Of a stretch of 32,313 nt of DNA, positions 66-7,621 are shown piece by piece. Positions within the stretch are counted from its first letter, which is position 1. Every line of letters starts with the position of its first letter. The stretch spans positions 1 through 32,313 of the forward strand of contig DAHUZT010000100.1 in NCBI GenBank assembly GCA_027315005.1, in the 5' to 3' direction. The translations under genes were made by a program, and so were the position numbers. The notes beneath the pieces are model-generated. The model searched no databases. It was not told where the DNA came from and was given only the letters and a program-made list of their open reading frames with translations. This DNA comes from Acidimicrobiaceae bacterium. GTDB taxonomy: Bacteria; Actinomycetota; Acidimicrobiia; Acidimicrobiales; RAAP-2.

Positions 66-1262
66 TCATGGTGCCGGCCGGACGACCGACCGATAGACGT
101 CCTCGTACCAACCGGCCAGGTGCTCCATGGACCAGTGCCGGGCCCAGACCATCGCGGCGTCCAACCAGTCGGCGCGGGAACACGGGGCCACAGCGGAGCT
201 CCCCACCCCCGCTGCTGTGGCCCAGGCCGCAGAAAGTGCACCCTCGAGCACCATCGCGAGCGCGACGGCGTCCCCGGGTGGGACAGTCAGTGCATGACCG
301 CCGGCCGCTCTCCGATACCCGTCGATGTCGCTCGCCACGACGACGGCACGAGCGGCCATCGCCTCCAGAAGCACCATCCCGAACGACTCACCGCCGAGCG
401 ATGGCGCGCACACCACCGCCGCCGAGGCCAGTCGACGCTCCTTTTCTTGCTCGCTCAGCACTCCGAGCCAGTGGATGTCGTCCGATTCGGGAGTCAGCCG
501 GCGCAGGCGCCCGGTCTCCGGGCCGTCCCCGGCGATCCAGAGCACCGGCCGACGGTCGCTCCCGCCACCTCGCTCGACTGCCCTGCGCTGAAGGGTACCG
601 AAGGCCTCTAGCAGCACGGACAGTCCCTTCCGCTCCTCGTGCCGACCGAGGAAGAGCACCACCGGCCGATTGTCGGACGACCAGGGAACCGCGTTCTCGA
701 ACCGGTCCATCTCGACACCGTTGAACCCGACGAGGTACGTCCCCCCGAGCGCCCGGTCCGCCGTCTGCCGGGCGGCCTCCGAGACGGCACAGCGCGCTGC
801 GAACCGCCCTGCAAGGGCCCGGATGAGCGGCTCGAGGACGGCGTAGAACGGGCTGGATCCGCTGCGGTGGAACGTGGTCACCATAGGAGGCAGTCCCGAT
901 GCGACCAGCAGGCCGTAGGGAACACCCGGGGCGAATGGCTCGTGCACGTGCACCACGTCGAACGCCGAAGAACGGATGGACCGGACGGCCCGGACGACGG
1001 CCGCCGGGGAGATGGTGATCGGGGCCCGCGACCCATTTGCGGGGACGCCCACCGATCCTCCGGTGACCTCGACGCCTTCGGCTCCATACGGGAGCCGATC
1101 TCCATCGACCGGCGCATAGACGGTGACCTCGTGGCCCCGGGCACGAAGCCCGCGGGCCAGTCCGAGCGACTGGCCCTGCACCCCGCCCGGACGAGAGAGG
1201 CTGTACGGACAGACCATGGCGACCCGTAGAGGCCGGGACGACCACTGCTCTTCCGGCTCCAC
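66..1262 (-). CDS. pimA: PimA-like phosphatidylinositol alpha-mannosyltransferase (GT4)
   Basis: This is a retaining GT-B glycosyltransferase of family GT4. It probably transfers mannose from GDP-mannose to phosphatidylinositol at the inner face of the membrane, the first step of PIM synthesis. The N-terminal acceptor domain starts MVCPYSLSRPGGVQGQ, with the Gly-rich loop near residue 26. His132 (TTFH) fits the catalytic-region His of PimA. Arg207 and Lys212 (LGRHEERKG) fit the donor diphosphate site. Glu292 and Glu300 form the GT4 EX7E motif. The length of about 398 aa fits the family. The GTG at 1262 starts 7 bp after the preceding stop; an ATG at 1217 (MVCPYS) is an alternative. The neighbours pgsA and patA support PimA over other GT4 enzymes. 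Exact sugar and acceptor specificity is inferred from context. Confidence 0.85.
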   Translation of the reverse strand: MEPEEQWSSRPLRVAMVCPYSLSRPGGVQGQSLGLARGLRARGHEVTVYAPVDGDRLPYGAEGVEVTGGSVGVPANGSRAPITISPAAVVRAVRSIRSSAFDVVHVHEPFAPGVPYGLLVASGLPPMVTTFHRSGSSPFYAVLEPLIRALAGRFAARCAVSEAARQTADRALGGTYLVGFNGVEMDRFENAVPWSSDNRPVVLFLGRHEERKGLSVLLEAFGTLQRRAVERGGGSDRRPVLWIAGDGPETGRLRRLTPESDDIHWLGVLSEQEKERRLASAAVVCAPSLGGESFGMVLLEAMAARAVVVASDIDGYRRAAGGHALTVPPGDAVALAMVLEGALSAAWATAAGVGSSAVAPCSRADWLDAAMVWARHWSMEHLAGWYEDVYRSVVRPAP

Positions 1263-1269
1263 CGGCGGT

Positions 1270-3267
1270 TCAGTCCTCCGGCGTGGCGATCATCGACCTG
1301 CGTCGGCGGCGGCGGGTCCATTTGACGCCGTACATGGCGTCATCGGCCTGGCTCAGCAGCTTGGAGGGGTCGGTGTTCGCATGGTCCACGAAGACCCCTC
1401 CGACCGAGGCCAGCGCATGGAGGATCCGGCCGTCGATGCGATAGGGCCGGGCAAGGGCCGACGAGATCCGCTCGGCGATACGCAGCATCTCCTCCTCGCC
1501 ACTCTCGATCTCGCAGACCACGACGAATTCGTCGCCTCCCAGACGGGCCACGGTGTCGGTTGGACGCACGATTGCAGTCAGTCGCCTGGCCACGGCGACG
1601 AGCAAGTCGTCGCCCACGTCGTGGCCCAGCTCGTCGTTGATCTCCTTGAACTCGTCCAGGTCGAGCAGGTAGACGGCCACTCCGGGATGGATCGTCCCTT
1701 CGGGGCCCCCCACCGGCATCGCGATCGAGCGCTCGGCCATGCCGTCGATGGCCTCCTGGAGGCGGTCGGCCAACAGCGTCCGGTTGGCCAGACCGGTCAG
1801 CGGATCGTGAAGGGCCATCTCGGCCAGGCGCTCTTCGTTGCGCTTCTGTTCGGTCACGTCGTGCATGGCCACAACCGCGCCGATCCGTCGCCCGGAATCG
1901 GCGATCAGGGCCTGGCCGTTGACGCTGACCTTGCGGCGGTTCCCATCGACCGATTCGAGGATGATCTCCATGTCGTCGAGCCAATCCCCCGACATCGCCC
2001 GGATCAGCGGGTTCTCACGAGGTGCCATGGCCGAGCCATCCGGTCGCAGCAGTCCATTCGCGGAAGGTACCCGACCGATCACCGCCGCGTCCTCGGGCAG
2101 CCCGTGCAGGTGGCGGGCGGACGGGTTGAACACGGTGATCCGACCGTCCGCATCACAGGCGACGATCCCCTCTTCCAGGGTGTCCAGCAGCACCTGGAGA
2201 AAGCGCTCCTCGCGCTCGAGCTCCGCGGCCGCGAGCCGGGCGTCGGTGACGTCGCTGAACGAGGCCACGGCTCCGCCCACCGTTCCGTCCACCTCCAGCA
2301 TGGGCCGGGCGTTGGTCCTGATCCAGATGGGATCCCTTTCGGGCCGACGGACCCCGAGCACCACGCCCACCGACCGGCGGCCGGTGCGCAGGCTGACGAT
2401 CAACGGATGGTCCTCGGGCCCCAAGGGATGTCCTCGGGCGTCGAGGAGCTCCAGCGAACCGGGAGGATCGCCGGTGAGGAGCTCCTCCAGCCGACGACCC
2501 ACCGTGCGGATCCGCGGCATGTCGAACATCACTTCGAAGGCCTCGTTGACCCGGACCACGGTGCCGGCGGCATCGACCGTGAGAACCCCGTCCGCGAGGG
2601 ATTCGATGATCGTCGAGTACCGCTGCTGGCCCTCCTCGATCCGTCGCCCGAGGGACTTCTGTTCGGTCACATCCCGGAGGCTGACCACGATTCCGCCGAT
2701 GGGGTCGTCGAGATGGTTGGCGGCGACCGCATCCAGTACGACCAGCCGGCCGTCCGCCCCGGTCGCTTCCAGCTCGAGGGACACCGAGAGGCGCCTGCGA
2801 GCGAGCAGGTCGTCGAACAGTGACCGCACCGTCGACTCGCTCACCCGATCGAACAGCGAGAAGACGTCCTCACCCACGGCGGTGCCGCTGTCGTAACCGA
2901 GGACCCGGGCCGCCGATGCACTCACGAACACGAAGCGACCGTCGGCGTCCACCACGGCAATGAGGTCGAACTCTCGCTGGTCGACGGCCGAGAACCTGAG
3001 CTCGGTACCCGCCGCCCCGGCCGGATCCGACCCGTTGGCGGTCGTCGAGTGTCCCCGGGGGTGCATCCCGGGCGACCCCCCGGTCGCCTCGCCGGCCGGA
3101 GCGGCCGTGCGCAGTTCAGGGGACGGGGTCGATCCGTTTCCCCCGGCCACCGGGCCATCCCCATCGGCCTCCGGTCGCCCGCCCGGCACCGCGAGCGGCC
3201 CCACCGAGACGGTTTCGGCGATCGCGCTCCCTGCTCGCGCGTCCGAGCGGTGCCAGAACCTGCTCAT
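1270..3267 (-). CDS. Diguanylate cyclase with three PAS domains
   Basis: A soluble 665-aa signalling enzyme predicted to make cyclic di-GMP from two GTP. The first about 90 residues are a low-complexity Gly/Pro/Ala-rich segment. Three PAS modules follow (about 100-205, 218-345 and 355-480), each ending in the typical 'DVTEQK'-like linker. The GGDEF domain follows (about 482-650). The active-site GGDEF is intact at 577-581, and an RxxD inhibitory I-site lies five residues before it (RPTD, 568-571), so product inhibition is expected. No transmembrane segment and no EAL domain are present. The start is the ATG at 3267, which overlaps the upstream acyltransferase stop as ATGA; an upstream start at 3318 would overlap that gene more. 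The C-terminus has a run of six arginines. Its place between patA-like and pimA-like genes is unexpected. Confidence 0.9.
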   Translation of the reverse strand: MSRFWHRSDARAGSAIAETVSVGPLAVPGGRPEADGDGPVAGGNGSTPSPELRTAAPAGEATGGSPGMHPRGHSTTANGSDPAGAAGTELRFSAVDQREFDLIAVVDADGRFVFVSASAARVLGYDSGTAVGEDVFSLFDRVSESTVRSLFDDLLARRRLSVSLELEATGADGRLVVLDAVAANHLDDPIGGIVVSLRDVTEQKSLGRRIEEGQQRYSTIIESLADGVLTVDAAGTVVRVNEAFEVMFDMPRIRTVGRRLEELLTGDPPGSLELLDARGHPLGPEDHPLIVSLRTGRRSVGVVLGVRRPERDPIWIRTNARPMLEVDGTVGGAVASFSDVTDARLAAAELEREERFLQVLLDTLEEGIVACDADGRITVFNPSARHLHGLPEDAAVIGRVPSANGLLRPDGSAMAPRENPLIRAMSGDWLDDMEIILESVDGNRRKVSVNGQALIADSGRRIGAVVAMHDVTEQKRNEERLAEMALHDPLTGLANRTLLADRLQEAIDGMAERSIAMPVGGPEGTIHPGVAVYLLDLDEFKEINDELGHDVGDDLLVAVARRLTAIVRPTDTVARLGGDEFVVVCEIESGEEEMLRIAERISSALARPYRIDGRILHALASVGGVFVDHANTDPSKLLSQADDAMYGVKWTRRRRRRSMIATPED

Positions 3268-4214
3268 GGTCCAGTCCGAGGGCGATCGGCGGTCCAAAGT
3301 GGTTGGAAGACGTGCCACTGCTCGGGTGCTCTCCGGATCAGCCCCTCCAGCCGGGTAGCGATCTCCTGGGTGATCCGGGTGATCTCCTGGCGCAGCGGTC
3401 CCCGACGGGTGGTGTCGAGTGGCGCCTGGATCAGACCGAGGTGCTCGGGGCCAGGGCCGCTGTAGACCGCGGCCGTCACCAGGCGGGCACCCGTCCGCAA
3501 TGCCAGCATCGCCGGCCCGGCCGGCATGGTCGTGCGCTCACCGAAGAACTCGACGTCGACGCCGTTGCCCACCAGGTCGCGATCGCACAGCAACCCCACC
3601 AGGCCTCCACTCCGCAGAGTATGCATCAGGGTACCGGTGAGGGATGGGTCGAGGGGGACAATGCGGAGGCCCATGGCCGCCCGCTGCTCGACGAAGTAGT
3701 CGAAGAGCTCCGGGGGGTCGAGGCGTTCGGCAACCGCGGTCATCGGCATGCCCCGAGCCGCCAGGAATGCTCCGCCATGCTCCCAGCTCCCGACGTGAGG
3801 CAGGGCCATGACCACGCCCTCGCCGGACTGCATTCCCTCGGTGAGATGCTCCAGACCCTCTACGAGCATCCTGCGCTCCACGTCTACGGACGAGGTGCGG
3901 CCGAGACGTGCCCCCTCGACCCAGTAACGGGCGTACGCCCGGAACGAACGGCGTGCCCACCGGTCGACGACCAAGTCATCATCGTGTCCGGCCCCGAGCA
4001 CACGACGGAGGTTGATGCGGACCATCTGTCGCTGCTGTCGACGGAGGTCGAAGAGGGCGTCCCCCACCAGAGCGGCCGCGCCAAGCGCCACAGGCTCGGG
4101 AATGATTGCCAGGCAGCGTCCCAGGGTCGCGTACGTCCTGAACGCCAACGCCCCTGTGTCCACGAGCTTCCTGCCCCGTAGGCGTACGGGCTCAGAGGTG
4201 ACGGCGCCCGGCAC
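3264..4214 (-). CDS. patA: PatA-like phosphatidylinositol mannoside acyltransferase
   Basis: A member of the LpxL/HtrB lysophospholipid acyltransferase family. In the PIM pathway it would acylate the mannose of PIM1/PIM2 at the cytoplasmic membrane face. The HxxxxE catalytic motif is present as HVGSWE. A DRDLVGNG segment follows, and then the conserved FFGERTTMPAGPAMLA stretch that typifies the family. The GTG at 4214 is preferred because an AGGGGA ribosome-binding site lies 9 nt upstream, the 316-aa product matches the family, and the overlap with the preceding gene is only 23 bp. An ATG at 4295 would add 27 residues and overlap about 100 bp; that stretch keeps high GC in third positions, so it cannot be excluded. 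The gene is followed through an ATGA overlap by the diguanylate cyclase. Confidence 0.8.
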   Translation of the reverse strand: MPGAVTSEPVRLRGRKLVDTGALAFRTYATLGRCLAIIPEPVALGAAALVGDALFDLRRQQRQMVRINLRRVLGAGHDDDLVVDRWARRSFRAYARYWVEGARLGRTSSVDVERRMLVEGLEHLTEGMQSGEGVVMALPHVGSWEHGGAFLAARGMPMTAVAERLDPPELFDYFVEQRAAMGLRIVPLDPSLTGTLMHTLRSGGLVGLLCDRDLVGNGVDVEFFGERTTMPAGPAMLALRTGARLVTAAVYSGPGPEHLGLIQAPLDTTRRGPLRQEITRITQEIATRLEGLIRRAPEQWHVFQPLWTADRPRTGP

Positions 4215-4974
4215 GAGCACGTGTCCCCTGACGGACGTGGCGGGCCCGCCACGCCCGTCCCGATCGGCTGGCGAGCTCACCCTGACGACGGGCACGCCAC
4301 CTGGACGGCGCTGAGGCCGACCGGCGACTGCGCGATCCCAGCCGGGACGCGGGACGCGTCCTTCGGGGACGGCGGACCGTAGCCACCGGGACCGGTGCTT
4401 CGGCGAGGCGCCACACTCTCACGAAGCGTCCCGCAGCGGTGAGCGCCGTCAGACCGAGCATGGTCCACAGAACCGGCACGAGGAAGCTGGCCGACAGGAA
4501 CCCGATCCCGAGGAGGATCATCCGTTCCGCCCGCTCCATCAGCCCGCCCTTCGCGGTGATACCCAGGGACTCGGCCTTTGCTCGCTGGTAGGAGACGAGC
4601 GAGGTCGCCCCGAGCACCCCGAAGGGGAGAAGGACCAGATGACCGCCGGAGGTCGAGGCCAGGTACCAGGCGACCCCTCCGAGGATGAGGGCGTCGGCCA
4701 CCCGATCGGTGACCGAATCGAAGAACGCCCCTCGTACCGACGTGGTCCCGGAGGCCTTGGCCACCGGGCCGTCGAGGAGATCGTGCAGGCCGGTCACCAC
4801 CAGCAGGATGATGGCCAGGTGGAGACGGCCAACGGCCACCGCGACCGCCGTGGCCGACGCCGAGATGAGACCGGTGGCAGTCAGGGTGTCGGCGGTGATT
4901 CCGAGGCGCTGCAGCCTCGCCCCCACAGGACCGGTCCTGCGATCGACCGCGCCGCGCCATCGCCCGTCAAACAT
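4192..4974 (-). CDS. pgsA: CDP-alcohol phosphatidyltransferase (probable phosphatidylinositol phosphate synthase)
   Basis: An integral membrane enzyme that condenses CDP-diacylglycerol with an alcohol, most likely inositol phosphate given the PIM-type neighbours. The family signature is DxxDGxxAR(x8)GxxxDxxxD. Here it reads DLLDGPVAK, then eight residues, then GAFFDSVTD, so all four metal-binding Asp are present but the Arg after Ala is Lys. Several hydrophobic helices surround it (LHLAIILLVVTGL, LVLLPFGVLGATSLV, LGIGFLSASFLVPVLW). The last about 65 residues are Arg/Ser-rich, overlap the next gene, and look unlike a folded domain. The ATG at 4974 gives a sensible start 71 bp after the HIT gene. 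Phosphatidylglycerol phosphate synthase is an alternative, but synteny favours the inositol enzyme. Confidence 0.8.
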   Translation of the reverse strand: MFDGRWRGAVDRRTGPVGARLQRLGITADTLTATGLISASATAVAVAVGRLHLAIILLVVTGLHDLLDGPVAKASGTTSVRGAFFDSVTDRVADALILGGVAWYLASTSGGHLVLLPFGVLGATSLVSYQRAKAESLGITAKGGLMERAERMILLGIGFLSASFLVPVLWTMLGLTALTAAGRFVRVWRLAEAPVPVATVRRPRRTRPASRLGSRSRRSASAPSRWRARRQGELASRSGRAWRARHVRQGTRARAGRRHL

Positions 4975-5045: not shown

Positions 5046-5639
5046 TCACCGGGAGAGAGCCGCATGCAGTCGGTGCCAGGAAACGGCCAGTGTCTCGGGG
5101 AGCACACGGGTATCGCACACCGCCGTCATGAAGTTGGTGTCCCCGACCCACCGAGGCACGGCGTGGAAGTGCAGGTGGCGCGGAATGCCCGCCCCTGCCG
5201 CACGGCCCAGATTGGCACCCAGGTTGAGGCCCTCCGGACCGTAGGCGGACTCGAGCGCCTCCACCATCCGACCGAGCCCCTCCCACAACTCGATCCCCTC
5301 CGAAGCGGTCAGGCCACCGAGATGGTGCACGTGGCGCAGGGGGAGGACCATCACGTGGCCGCTTGCGTACGGGTAGGCATTGAGCACGGCGAACACCTCC
5401 GACCCCACCCACAGGATGCCGTTGTCGACGGAAGGGGGACCGCTGGCGGCGATCCGGCAGAAGACACACCCTGCCGGATCCTCTGGATCGACCGGTTGGT
5501 CCGGAGCAACCGGTTCCACCCCTGAGCTCGGCGGAAGGTGAGAAGGCGTTCCGCCGCCGTCGAGGGCGACTCGGGAGGCGGAACCGGTCCCCGCGACGTA
5601 GTGGCTACGCCAGCCCGCCCACAGGCGTTCGAGGGTCAC
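5046..5639 (-). CDS. HIT-domain nucleotide hydrolase/phosphorylase
   Basis: A 197-aa histidine-triad protein. The active-site motif HLHFHAVPRW places His155, His157 and His159, and the family's upstream strand NAYPYASGHVMVLPLRHV is clear at about 87-104. A Cys58-x2-Cys61 pair (CVFC) precedes it and may bind zinc. Mycobacterial proteins at the same position, between thrS and pgsA, act on diadenosine tetraphosphate, so Ap4A breakdown is likely but inferred. The start is a GTG at 5639 that overlaps the thrS stop as GTGA. The N-terminus TLERLWAGWRSHYV resembles that of the mycobacterial homologue as I recall it, which supports this start over the much longer open frame upstream. Coupling to threonyl-tRNA synthetase makes sense, since aminoacyl-tRNA synthetases generate Ap4A. 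Confidence 0.85.
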   Translation of the reverse strand: MTLERLWAGWRSHYVAGTGSASRVALDGGGTPSHLPPSSGVEPVAPDQPVDPEDPAGCVFCRIAASGPPSVDNGILWVGSEVFAVLNAYPYASGHVMVLPLRHVHHLGGLTASEGIELWEGLGRMVEALESAYGPEGLNLGANLGRAAGAGIPRHLHFHAVPRWVGDTNFMTAVCDTRVLPETLAVSWHRLHAALSR

Positions 5640-7621
5640 GAGCGCTCCGGCAGCGTCCGGCCGGCGATGTCCGCTTCGAGATCGGCGGTGAATGTGGCCA
5701 GGCCGACGTTGCGCTCGGGTCGGTCGCCTCCACGGCGGTTCACCCCGACGGTGCCCGCCGCCACGTCTTCGTCCCCCACCACCAGCACGTAGGGGACCTT
5801 TGCCAGCTTGGCCCGCCGGATGCGGGCTCCGAGCGGCTCGTCGGCCGGGTCGACTGCGACCCTGGCTCCGACCGCGCCCAGCCGGTCGGCCACCTTGGTG
5901 GCGTATCCGTGATGGTCGTCGCGAACGCCGAGCACTCGGACCTGCTCGGGTGACAACCAGGTTGGCAGGGCACCGGCGAAATGCTCCAGCAGGATGGCAA
6001 AGAACCGCTCCACCGAGCCGAACAGGGCACGGTGGATCATGATCGGCCGCCGGCGTGTGTTGTCGGACCCGACGTACTCGGCGTCGAACCGCTGCGGGGT
6101 CTGAAAATCGAGCTGGATGGTGGACATCTGGTGGGTCCGGCCGATGGCGTCCTTTGCCTGGACCGAGATCTTCGGACCGTAGAAAGCGCCACCGCCCTCG
6201 TCGAGCACGAGGTCCAGATCCATGGCAAGGGCGGCGTCGCGCAATGTCTCGGTGGCCTCGTCCCACTCTTCGGACGTCCCGCCCGCCTTGCCCTCCGGCC
6301 TGGTCGACAGCTCCAGATAGAACTCCTCGAGCCCGAAGTCCCTCAACAACGAGAGGACGAAGGTCAGTGTCCGATGGAGCTCATCAGCCATCTGCTGGCG
6401 CGTGCAGAAGATGTGCGCGTCATCCTGGGTCATGCCCCGTACCCGAGTGAGCCCGTGGACCACCCCGGACTTCTCGTAGCGGTAGACGGTGCCGAACTCG
6501 AACAGTCGGAGCGGGAGCTCCCGGTACGAGCGCTGCCGGCTCTTGAAGATGAGGACGTGGAACGGGCAGTTCATGGGCTTCAGGTGGTACTGCTGCCCAC
6601 CGTCGAGCTCGATGGGCGGGAACATCCCGTCGGCGAACCAGTCGAGGTGGCCCGACGTCTCGAAGAGCTCCGACTTCGAGATGTGTGGAGTGGTGACGAA
6701 CTCGTAACCGGCTGCCCGGTGGCGCTGGTACGAATAGTCCTCCATCAGGCGGCGGACGGTTCCCCCCTTGGGGTGGAACACGGCCAGGCCCGATCCGATC
6801 TCCTCGGGGAACGAGAACAGGTCGAGCTCGGCGCCGAGGCGGCGGTGGTCCCGGCGCTCTGCCTCCTCGAGACGGTGCAGATAGGCCTCGAGCGCCTCGC
6901 GTGACTCCCATGCGGTGCCGTAGATCCGCTGGAGCTGCTGGCGCTTCTCGTCCCCTCGCCAATATGCGCCCGCCACCCGCATGAGCGCGAACTGTCCGAG
7001 TCGGCCGGTGGACGGAACATGGGGTCCGCGGCAGAGGTCGGTGAACGAGGAAGAGTTCCGGTAGGTGGAGACCCGGGCATCCGAGCCCTCGCCGGCCGGA
7101 GCGTCCACCTCGTCATGGCCAGAGCCGACCGCTGCGATGATCTCCCGCTTGAACGGCTGGTCGGCGAAGAGGGACATCCCCTCCTCGATCGAATGCTCAG
7201 CACGGAGGAACGGCTGGTCCTCGGCGATGATCTCCCGCATCGTCGCTTCGATCCGTTCGAGGTCGTCGTCGCTGAAATGCGCCCCTCCCGGAAGCTCGAA
7301 GTCGTAGTAGAACCCGTCCTCGATGGCCGGGCCGATCGCGAAGTGAGCGCCCGGCCACAGCCGGAGAACGGCCTGGGCCAGGACGTGGGCCGTCGAGTGA
7401 CGCAGGACAGCCCGACCGGCGTCCGATTCGGCGGTGACGATGGAGATCGCGGCACCGTCTGGCGCGGCTGCGGTGAGATCCGCCTCGACCCCGTCGAAGG
7501 TGACGGCCACCGCTGCCTTCGCCAGGCGCGGGCCGATGGACCGGGCGAGCTCGAGAGCCGTCGTGCCCGGTTCGACCTCCCTGGTCGAACCGTCCGGGAG
7601 CTGAACGCTCACGACTGCCAT
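5636..7621 (-). CDS. thrS: Threonine-tRNA ligase
   Basis: A class II aminoacyl-tRNA synthetase of 661 aa, full length. In order it has the TGS domain (about 1-60, VSVQLPDGSTREVEPG), the editing/SAD domain (about 65-240, with HSTAHVLAQA), the catalytic core (about 260-540) and the anticodon-binding domain (about 550-655). Catalytic-core marks include MNCPFHVLIF, with a zinc-ligand Cys, then LRLFEFGTVYRYEKSG and RVRGMTQDDAHIF (motif 2), and HRALFGSVERFFAILLEHF (motif 3). The start is the ATG at 7621. The 93-bp leader upstream carries a 21-bp tandem duplication. The stop overlaps the HIT-gene GTG. This is an essential housekeeping gene heading the lipid operon, as in mycobacteria. Confidence 0.97.
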   Translation of the reverse strand: MAVVSVQLPDGSTREVEPGTTALELARSIGPRLAKAAVAVTFDGVEADLTAAAPDGAAISIVTAESDAGRAVLRHSTAHVLAQAVLRLWPGAHFAIGPAIEDGFYYDFELPGGAHFSDDDLERIEATMREIIAEDQPFLRAEHSIEEGMSLFADQPFKREIIAAVGSGHDEVDAPAGEGSDARVSTYRNSSSFTDLCRGPHVPSTGRLGQFALMRVAGAYWRGDEKRQQLQRIYGTAWESREALEAYLHRLEEAERRDHRRLGAELDLFSFPEEIGSGLAVFHPKGGTVRRLMEDYSYQRHRAAGYEFVTTPHISKSELFETSGHLDWFADGMFPPIELDGGQQYHLKPMNCPFHVLIFKSRQRSYRELPLRLFEFGTVYRYEKSGVVHGLTRVRGMTQDDAHIFCTRQQMADELHRTLTFVLSLLRDFGLEEFYLELSTRPEGKAGGTSEEWDEATETLRDAALAMDLDLVLDEGGGAFYGPKISVQAKDAIGRTHQMSTIQLDFQTPQRFDAEYVGSDNTRRRPIMIHRALFGSVERFFAILLEHFAGALPTWLSPEQVRVLGVRDDHHGYATKVADRLGAVGARVAVDPADEPLGARIRRAKLAKVPYVLVVGDEDVAAGTVGVNRRGGDRPERNVGLATFTADLEADIAGRTLPERS

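Follow-up and report, generated by a model that had tools for sequence, protein, structure and literature searches.

In a 32,313-nucleotide stretch of an Acidimicrobiaceae genome (assembly GCA_027315005.1, contig DAHUZT010000100.1; hereafter the window), a gene for a predicted diguanylate cyclase (DGC) lies between patA and pimA in the operon for phosphatidylinositol mannoside (PIM) synthesis. The identity of the enzyme and its membership of the operon are well supported. A regulatory tie of its predicted product, cyclic diguanylate (c-di-GMP), to PIM lipids is plausible, as is a cyclase that serves the global pool and just travels with the operon. The reading that we prefer, with a probability of about one half, is that of a PAS-gated, product-inhibited and operon-linked cyclase that would supply c-di-GMP at the place and time of PIM synthesis and link this synthesis to surface and lifestyle programmes.

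A predicted diguanylate cyclase within the PIM operon

The window lies at the beginning of contig C22, one of 130 contigs in a genome of 3.06 Mb that is 93% complete. On its minus strand, thrS, a HIT-family gene, a phosphatidylinositol (PI) or PI-phosphate synthase gene, patA, the DGC gene and pimA follow one another with short spacing, in the gene order of a PIM operon:

1270..3267 (-): DGC, 665 amino acids (Pfam, AlphaFold2 model, motif check)
3264..3267 (-): ATGA overlap of the DGC start codon with the patA stop codon (TGA at 3264), a signature of translational coupling
1263..1269 (-): 7-bp spacer between the DGC stop and pimA (coordinates)
3264..4295 (-): patA, phosphatidylinositol mannoside acyltransferase, start codon uncertain (NF005919 above cut-off; PatA 5f2t, 4.4e-43)
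66..1262 (-): pimA, glycosyltransferase family 4 (GT4) phosphatidylinositol mannosyltransferase, GTG start at 1262 (PimA 4n9w/2gej, best 3.8e-50)
4192..4974 (-): pgsA-type PI/PI-phosphate synthase (PF01066; PDB 6h53 and 6wm5, best 8.6e-18)
5046..5645 (-): HIT-family ATP adenylyltransferase-like protein (PF01230)
5636..7621 (-): thrS, threonyl-tRNA synthetase (TIGR00418 above cut-off)

PatA was identified by its NCBIfam model and, like PimA, by solved homologues; for both, the substrate is a prediction. The initial annotation had placed the ATGA joint with patA and the 7-bp distance to pimA correctly. It had set the patA start at 4214, which is an internal start, the reading frame opening at 4295 with the true start uncertain. 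A sequence scan, which is weak evidence on this point, saw no promoter- or terminator-like sites between patA, DGC and pimA, and the three genes are probably co-transcribed. The gene order had been likened to that of mycobacteria, and it does match the published mycobacterial PIM operon Rv2614c-Rv2610c (thrS-HIT-pgsA-patA-pimA), from which a GGDEF gene is absent (PMC3229680). The window thus shares with the mycobacterial and corynebacterial operon the order and families of thrS, HIT, PI synthase, PatA and PimA, but differs in having a PAS-GGDEF gene between patA and pimA that overlaps patA.

Pfam detected three PAS stretches and a GGDEF domain (4.5e-37) in the DGC, laid out as PAS1 (residues ~101-200), PAS2 (~226-340), PAS3 (~366-471) and GGDEF (~490-660); against PF00990 the protein scored 127.8 bits, the curated cut-off being 23.8. 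The AlphaFold2 model contained three PAS folds and a GGDEF domain, with residues 1-98 disordered, and no transmembrane segment was found in the protein. The GGDEF motif (residues 577-581) is intact and the metal and substrate residues are all present (D536, N544, D553, E580, K649 and R653), with roles that we take, by analogy, to be those known from PleD. An inhibitory site (I-site) of the RxxD type is formed by R568 and D571, five residues ahead of GGDEF, and RPTDTVARLGGDEF spans both the I-site and the active-site motif; such sites are common in DGCs, but not obligatory. Pfam, the structural model and the motif residues agree with the initial description of a triple-PAS GGDEF enzyme with intact active site and I-site, and the protein is predicted to be enzymatically active. 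Like its PAS-GGDEF relatives (PA0861, a PAS-GGDEF-EAL protein, 5xgb; DosP; PleD), it has PAS joined by a helix to a GGDEF domain with an I-site; unlike them, it has three PAS domains and no EAL domain, and is soluble.

In a PDB sequence search for the PAS ligand, PAS3 matched only WalK-type PAS (1e-5), and PAS1 and PAS2 had no match. Fold matches to DosP, FixL and MmoS were discarded as a clue to the ligand, as they reflect general PAS resemblance. The earlier suggestion of envelope or redox sensing by the PAS domains is a guess. Cys371 in PAS3 (window 2155-2157) and Cys585 in the GGDEF domain (1513-1515) were invariant in 17 aligned orthologues and possibly have a redox or structural role. 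Relative to orthologues from other families, the GGDEF domain carries an insert of ~13 residues (~518-530) ahead of the first metal-binding strand, the length of which varies among relatives of the same family.

Conservation, coupling and history of the gene

Relatives were retrieved by name and are nearly all Acidimicrobiales-type metagenome-assembled genomes of uncultured organisms. A full-length DGC was present in 12 of 14 congeners, including all ten that are >90% complete, and the full-length orthologues whose surroundings were read were placed between patA and pimA. Families f45, f61 and f31 contributed near relatives at this site (298 genomes of the order searched), and 28 distinct DGC loci were gathered from four families of Acidimicrobiales. 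Conservation in the genus and recurrence in three other families dispose of the one-off insertion that the initial annotation had considered; an assembly artefact is likewise ruled out by genus-wide conservation, and conservation across relatives excludes a chance arrangement.

The exact 4-nt overlap with patA (RTGA) was found in 23 of the 28 loci; start codons were picked nearest to the overlap position, and ~1 in 6 would be expected with random frames. RxxD, five residues and GGDEF were kept in 26/28. Of eight pairs, seven gave a ratio of non-synonymous to synonymous substitution (dN/dS) for the DGC of 0.07-0.33, and the one that includes locus L040 gave 0.42; these values are near those of patA and pimA. 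At the same site, an orthologue with SGDEF (L040) and one with GGDEL (L129) persist, as they might if the protein were mainly a scaffold or ligand-sensing partner with a secondary catalytic output. We regard this as highly improbable, given the intact GGDEF and I-site motif in all but two of the loci and the faster evolution of the SGDEF copy. The SGDEF orthologue (L040:8894-11320) lies on a long branch and is possibly decaying.

The N-terminal sensor part varies at the same site from one to three PAS domains. On a tree of patA and pimA, DGC presence required seven changes and was strongly clustered. A single origin of the syntenic DGCs was not rejected (approximately unbiased test, p 0.43); a strict single clade was set aside, a quick tree nesting some non-syntenic DGCs among them with weak support. 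An old gain of the DGC with several losses fits these sequence data best, and spread by transfer is possible.

Adjacency of patA and pimA, which the initial annotation took to be normal, holds in nearly all other actinobacteria sampled. Among 80 named patA loci, pimA was adjacent in 57, while a DGC lay between patA and pimA in 15 and at a contig end in 2. Of the genomes of the order that allowed a comparison of patA and pimA (~119, counted by hand), ~102 had the two genes adjacent, five had PAS-GGDEF between them and two had GGDEF-EAL. No GGDEF gene was found in the gap outside the order (149 genomes of the phylum); adjacency was the rule across the phylum sample, and other things occupied the eight wide gaps that were inspected, one of which is in the order. 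The arrangement is universal neither in the order nor in the phylum, since all sampled outside genomes, and most of the order, lack GGDEF there. Relocation is ruled out for the six DGC-less relatives checked, none of which carries an orthologue elsewhere in the genome.

A second c-di-GMP enzyme and other occupants of the gap

Family f7 has a different protein in the gap between patA and pimA: a PAS-GGDEF-EAL protein that is anchored in the membrane, is unrelated to the DGC and keeps both its GGDEF and its EAL motif intact. It has patA upstream and pimA downstream in eight genomes (L160-L164, L166, L167 and L169), and pimA downstream with the upstream side cut or unmatched in four more (L165, L168, L170 and L172). 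A PAS-GGDEF-EAL protein between patA and pimA was noted for the f7 set L119, L120 and L160-L172. It resembles the DGC of the window as a c-di-GMP enzyme between these two genes, but differs in its membrane anchor, its EAL domain, the missing I-site arginine, an unrelated GGDEF lineage and looser spacing. That c-di-GMP enzymes were recruited twice, independently, speaks for a functional tie.

Other inserts were an SBP_bac_5-type extracellular solute-binding protein (L112-L115 of f21, and L122), a class III nucleotide cyclase fused to AAA/TPR regions (L121:2398-5166), a sulfotransferase-like protein (by eye) and small membrane proteins. Since unrelated genes are found there, the tolerance of the gap for inserts is real, and the gap could be a neutral slot that takes any same-strand insert, in which abundant GGDEF genes landed twice. 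We hold this to be improbable: the DGC is under purifying selection and retained in every near-complete congener, and the binomial chance of at least two GGDEF among ~9 insert types is 0.0003-0.004 with GGDEF at 0.3-1.1% of genes, a rough and post hoc estimate with insert types counted by hand.

Regulatory tie or shared expression

The genome encodes nine GGDEF, nine EAL and one PilZ, and its c-di-GMP network looks complete. Seven of the nine GGDEF proteins are GGDEF-EAL, so that the DGC of the window is one of two stand-alone cyclases. The main rival to our reading is that this cyclase feeds the global c-di-GMP pool from a constitutive, thrS-containing housekeeping operon that offers steady expression, with no specific tie to PIMs. 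We give this a substantial chance, if one short of even. The eight other GGDEF and nine EAL domains, the patchy distribution with losses and the variable sensor part favour it, whereas the 4-nt overlap, kept over large divergence, and the second c-di-GMP enzyme that this gap gained independently speak for the PIM-linked cyclase.

Several further observations weigh against a specific link. Most of the order is without a DGC in the gap, close relatives included, among them L036 and L038 (65-67% patA identity) and the f45 genomes G045 and G090; these four lack an orthologue at any other site as well, and PIM synthesis thus does not need the DGC. The SGDEF copy, with its dN/dS of 0.42, and the GGDEL copy point the same way, as do the unrelated genes in the gap (solute-binding protein, nucleotide cyclase-ATPase and others). 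By Pfam, PimA has only its GT4 domain and PatA only its acyltransferase domain, with no added c-di-GMP-binding domain in either, and the genes downstream of pimA lie past the contig end, which we counted on the same side. The initial proposal that c-di-GMP output is tied to inositol-lipid synthesis is partly supported: it gains from the conserved placement and from the unrelated f7 protein in the gap, and loses from the unrelated genes that the gap also takes.

For NfrB/DgcJ, a DGC that acts locally has been described as serving a glycosyltransferase, and nfr operons of pseudomonads have linked DGC genes (PMC8669469). The window is similar in that a DGC gene accompanies a glycosyltransferase for envelope or exopolysaccharide, and different in that Pfam shows no c-di-GMP-binding domain in PimA or PatA and that a membrane glycolipid is made. 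Among the papers searched, none linked c-di-GMP to pimA. Operon-linked cyclases beside glycosyltransferases are already known, and the PIM-operon cyclase appears to be a new variant.

The sequences show the operon order, the overlap, intact motifs for catalysis and inhibition, conservation, purifying selection and the second recruitment, and from these we infer the functional link between the DGC and PIMs. In our preferred reading, the PIM-lipid operon of a lineage of Acidimicrobiales would include, as a constant component, a soluble, PAS-gated and I-site-regulated DGC that is co-translated with PatA and PimA, so that c-di-GMP capacity is proposed to rise with PIM synthesis. Cytosolic PAS input would control GGDEF dimerisation, c-di-GMP would shut the cyclase off through RxxD, and it may be produced beside PatA and PimA at the membrane. 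Its most likely purpose would be to coordinate the synthesis of envelope glycolipids with surface and lifestyle programmes under c-di-GMP control, either locally or via the pool. That c-di-GMP from the DGC directly regulates the first PIM steps (PimA and/or PatA, or a partner), in an arrangement acquired at least twice in Acidimicrobiales, seems unlikely.

PIMs anchor envelope lipoglycans in many actinobacteria, and to our knowledge the regulation of their synthesis is poorly known. A conserved operon cyclase together with an independent second case would provide a concrete, testable link between c-di-GMP and the PIM pathway; direct control, if true, would amount to second-messenger control of inositol glycolipids.
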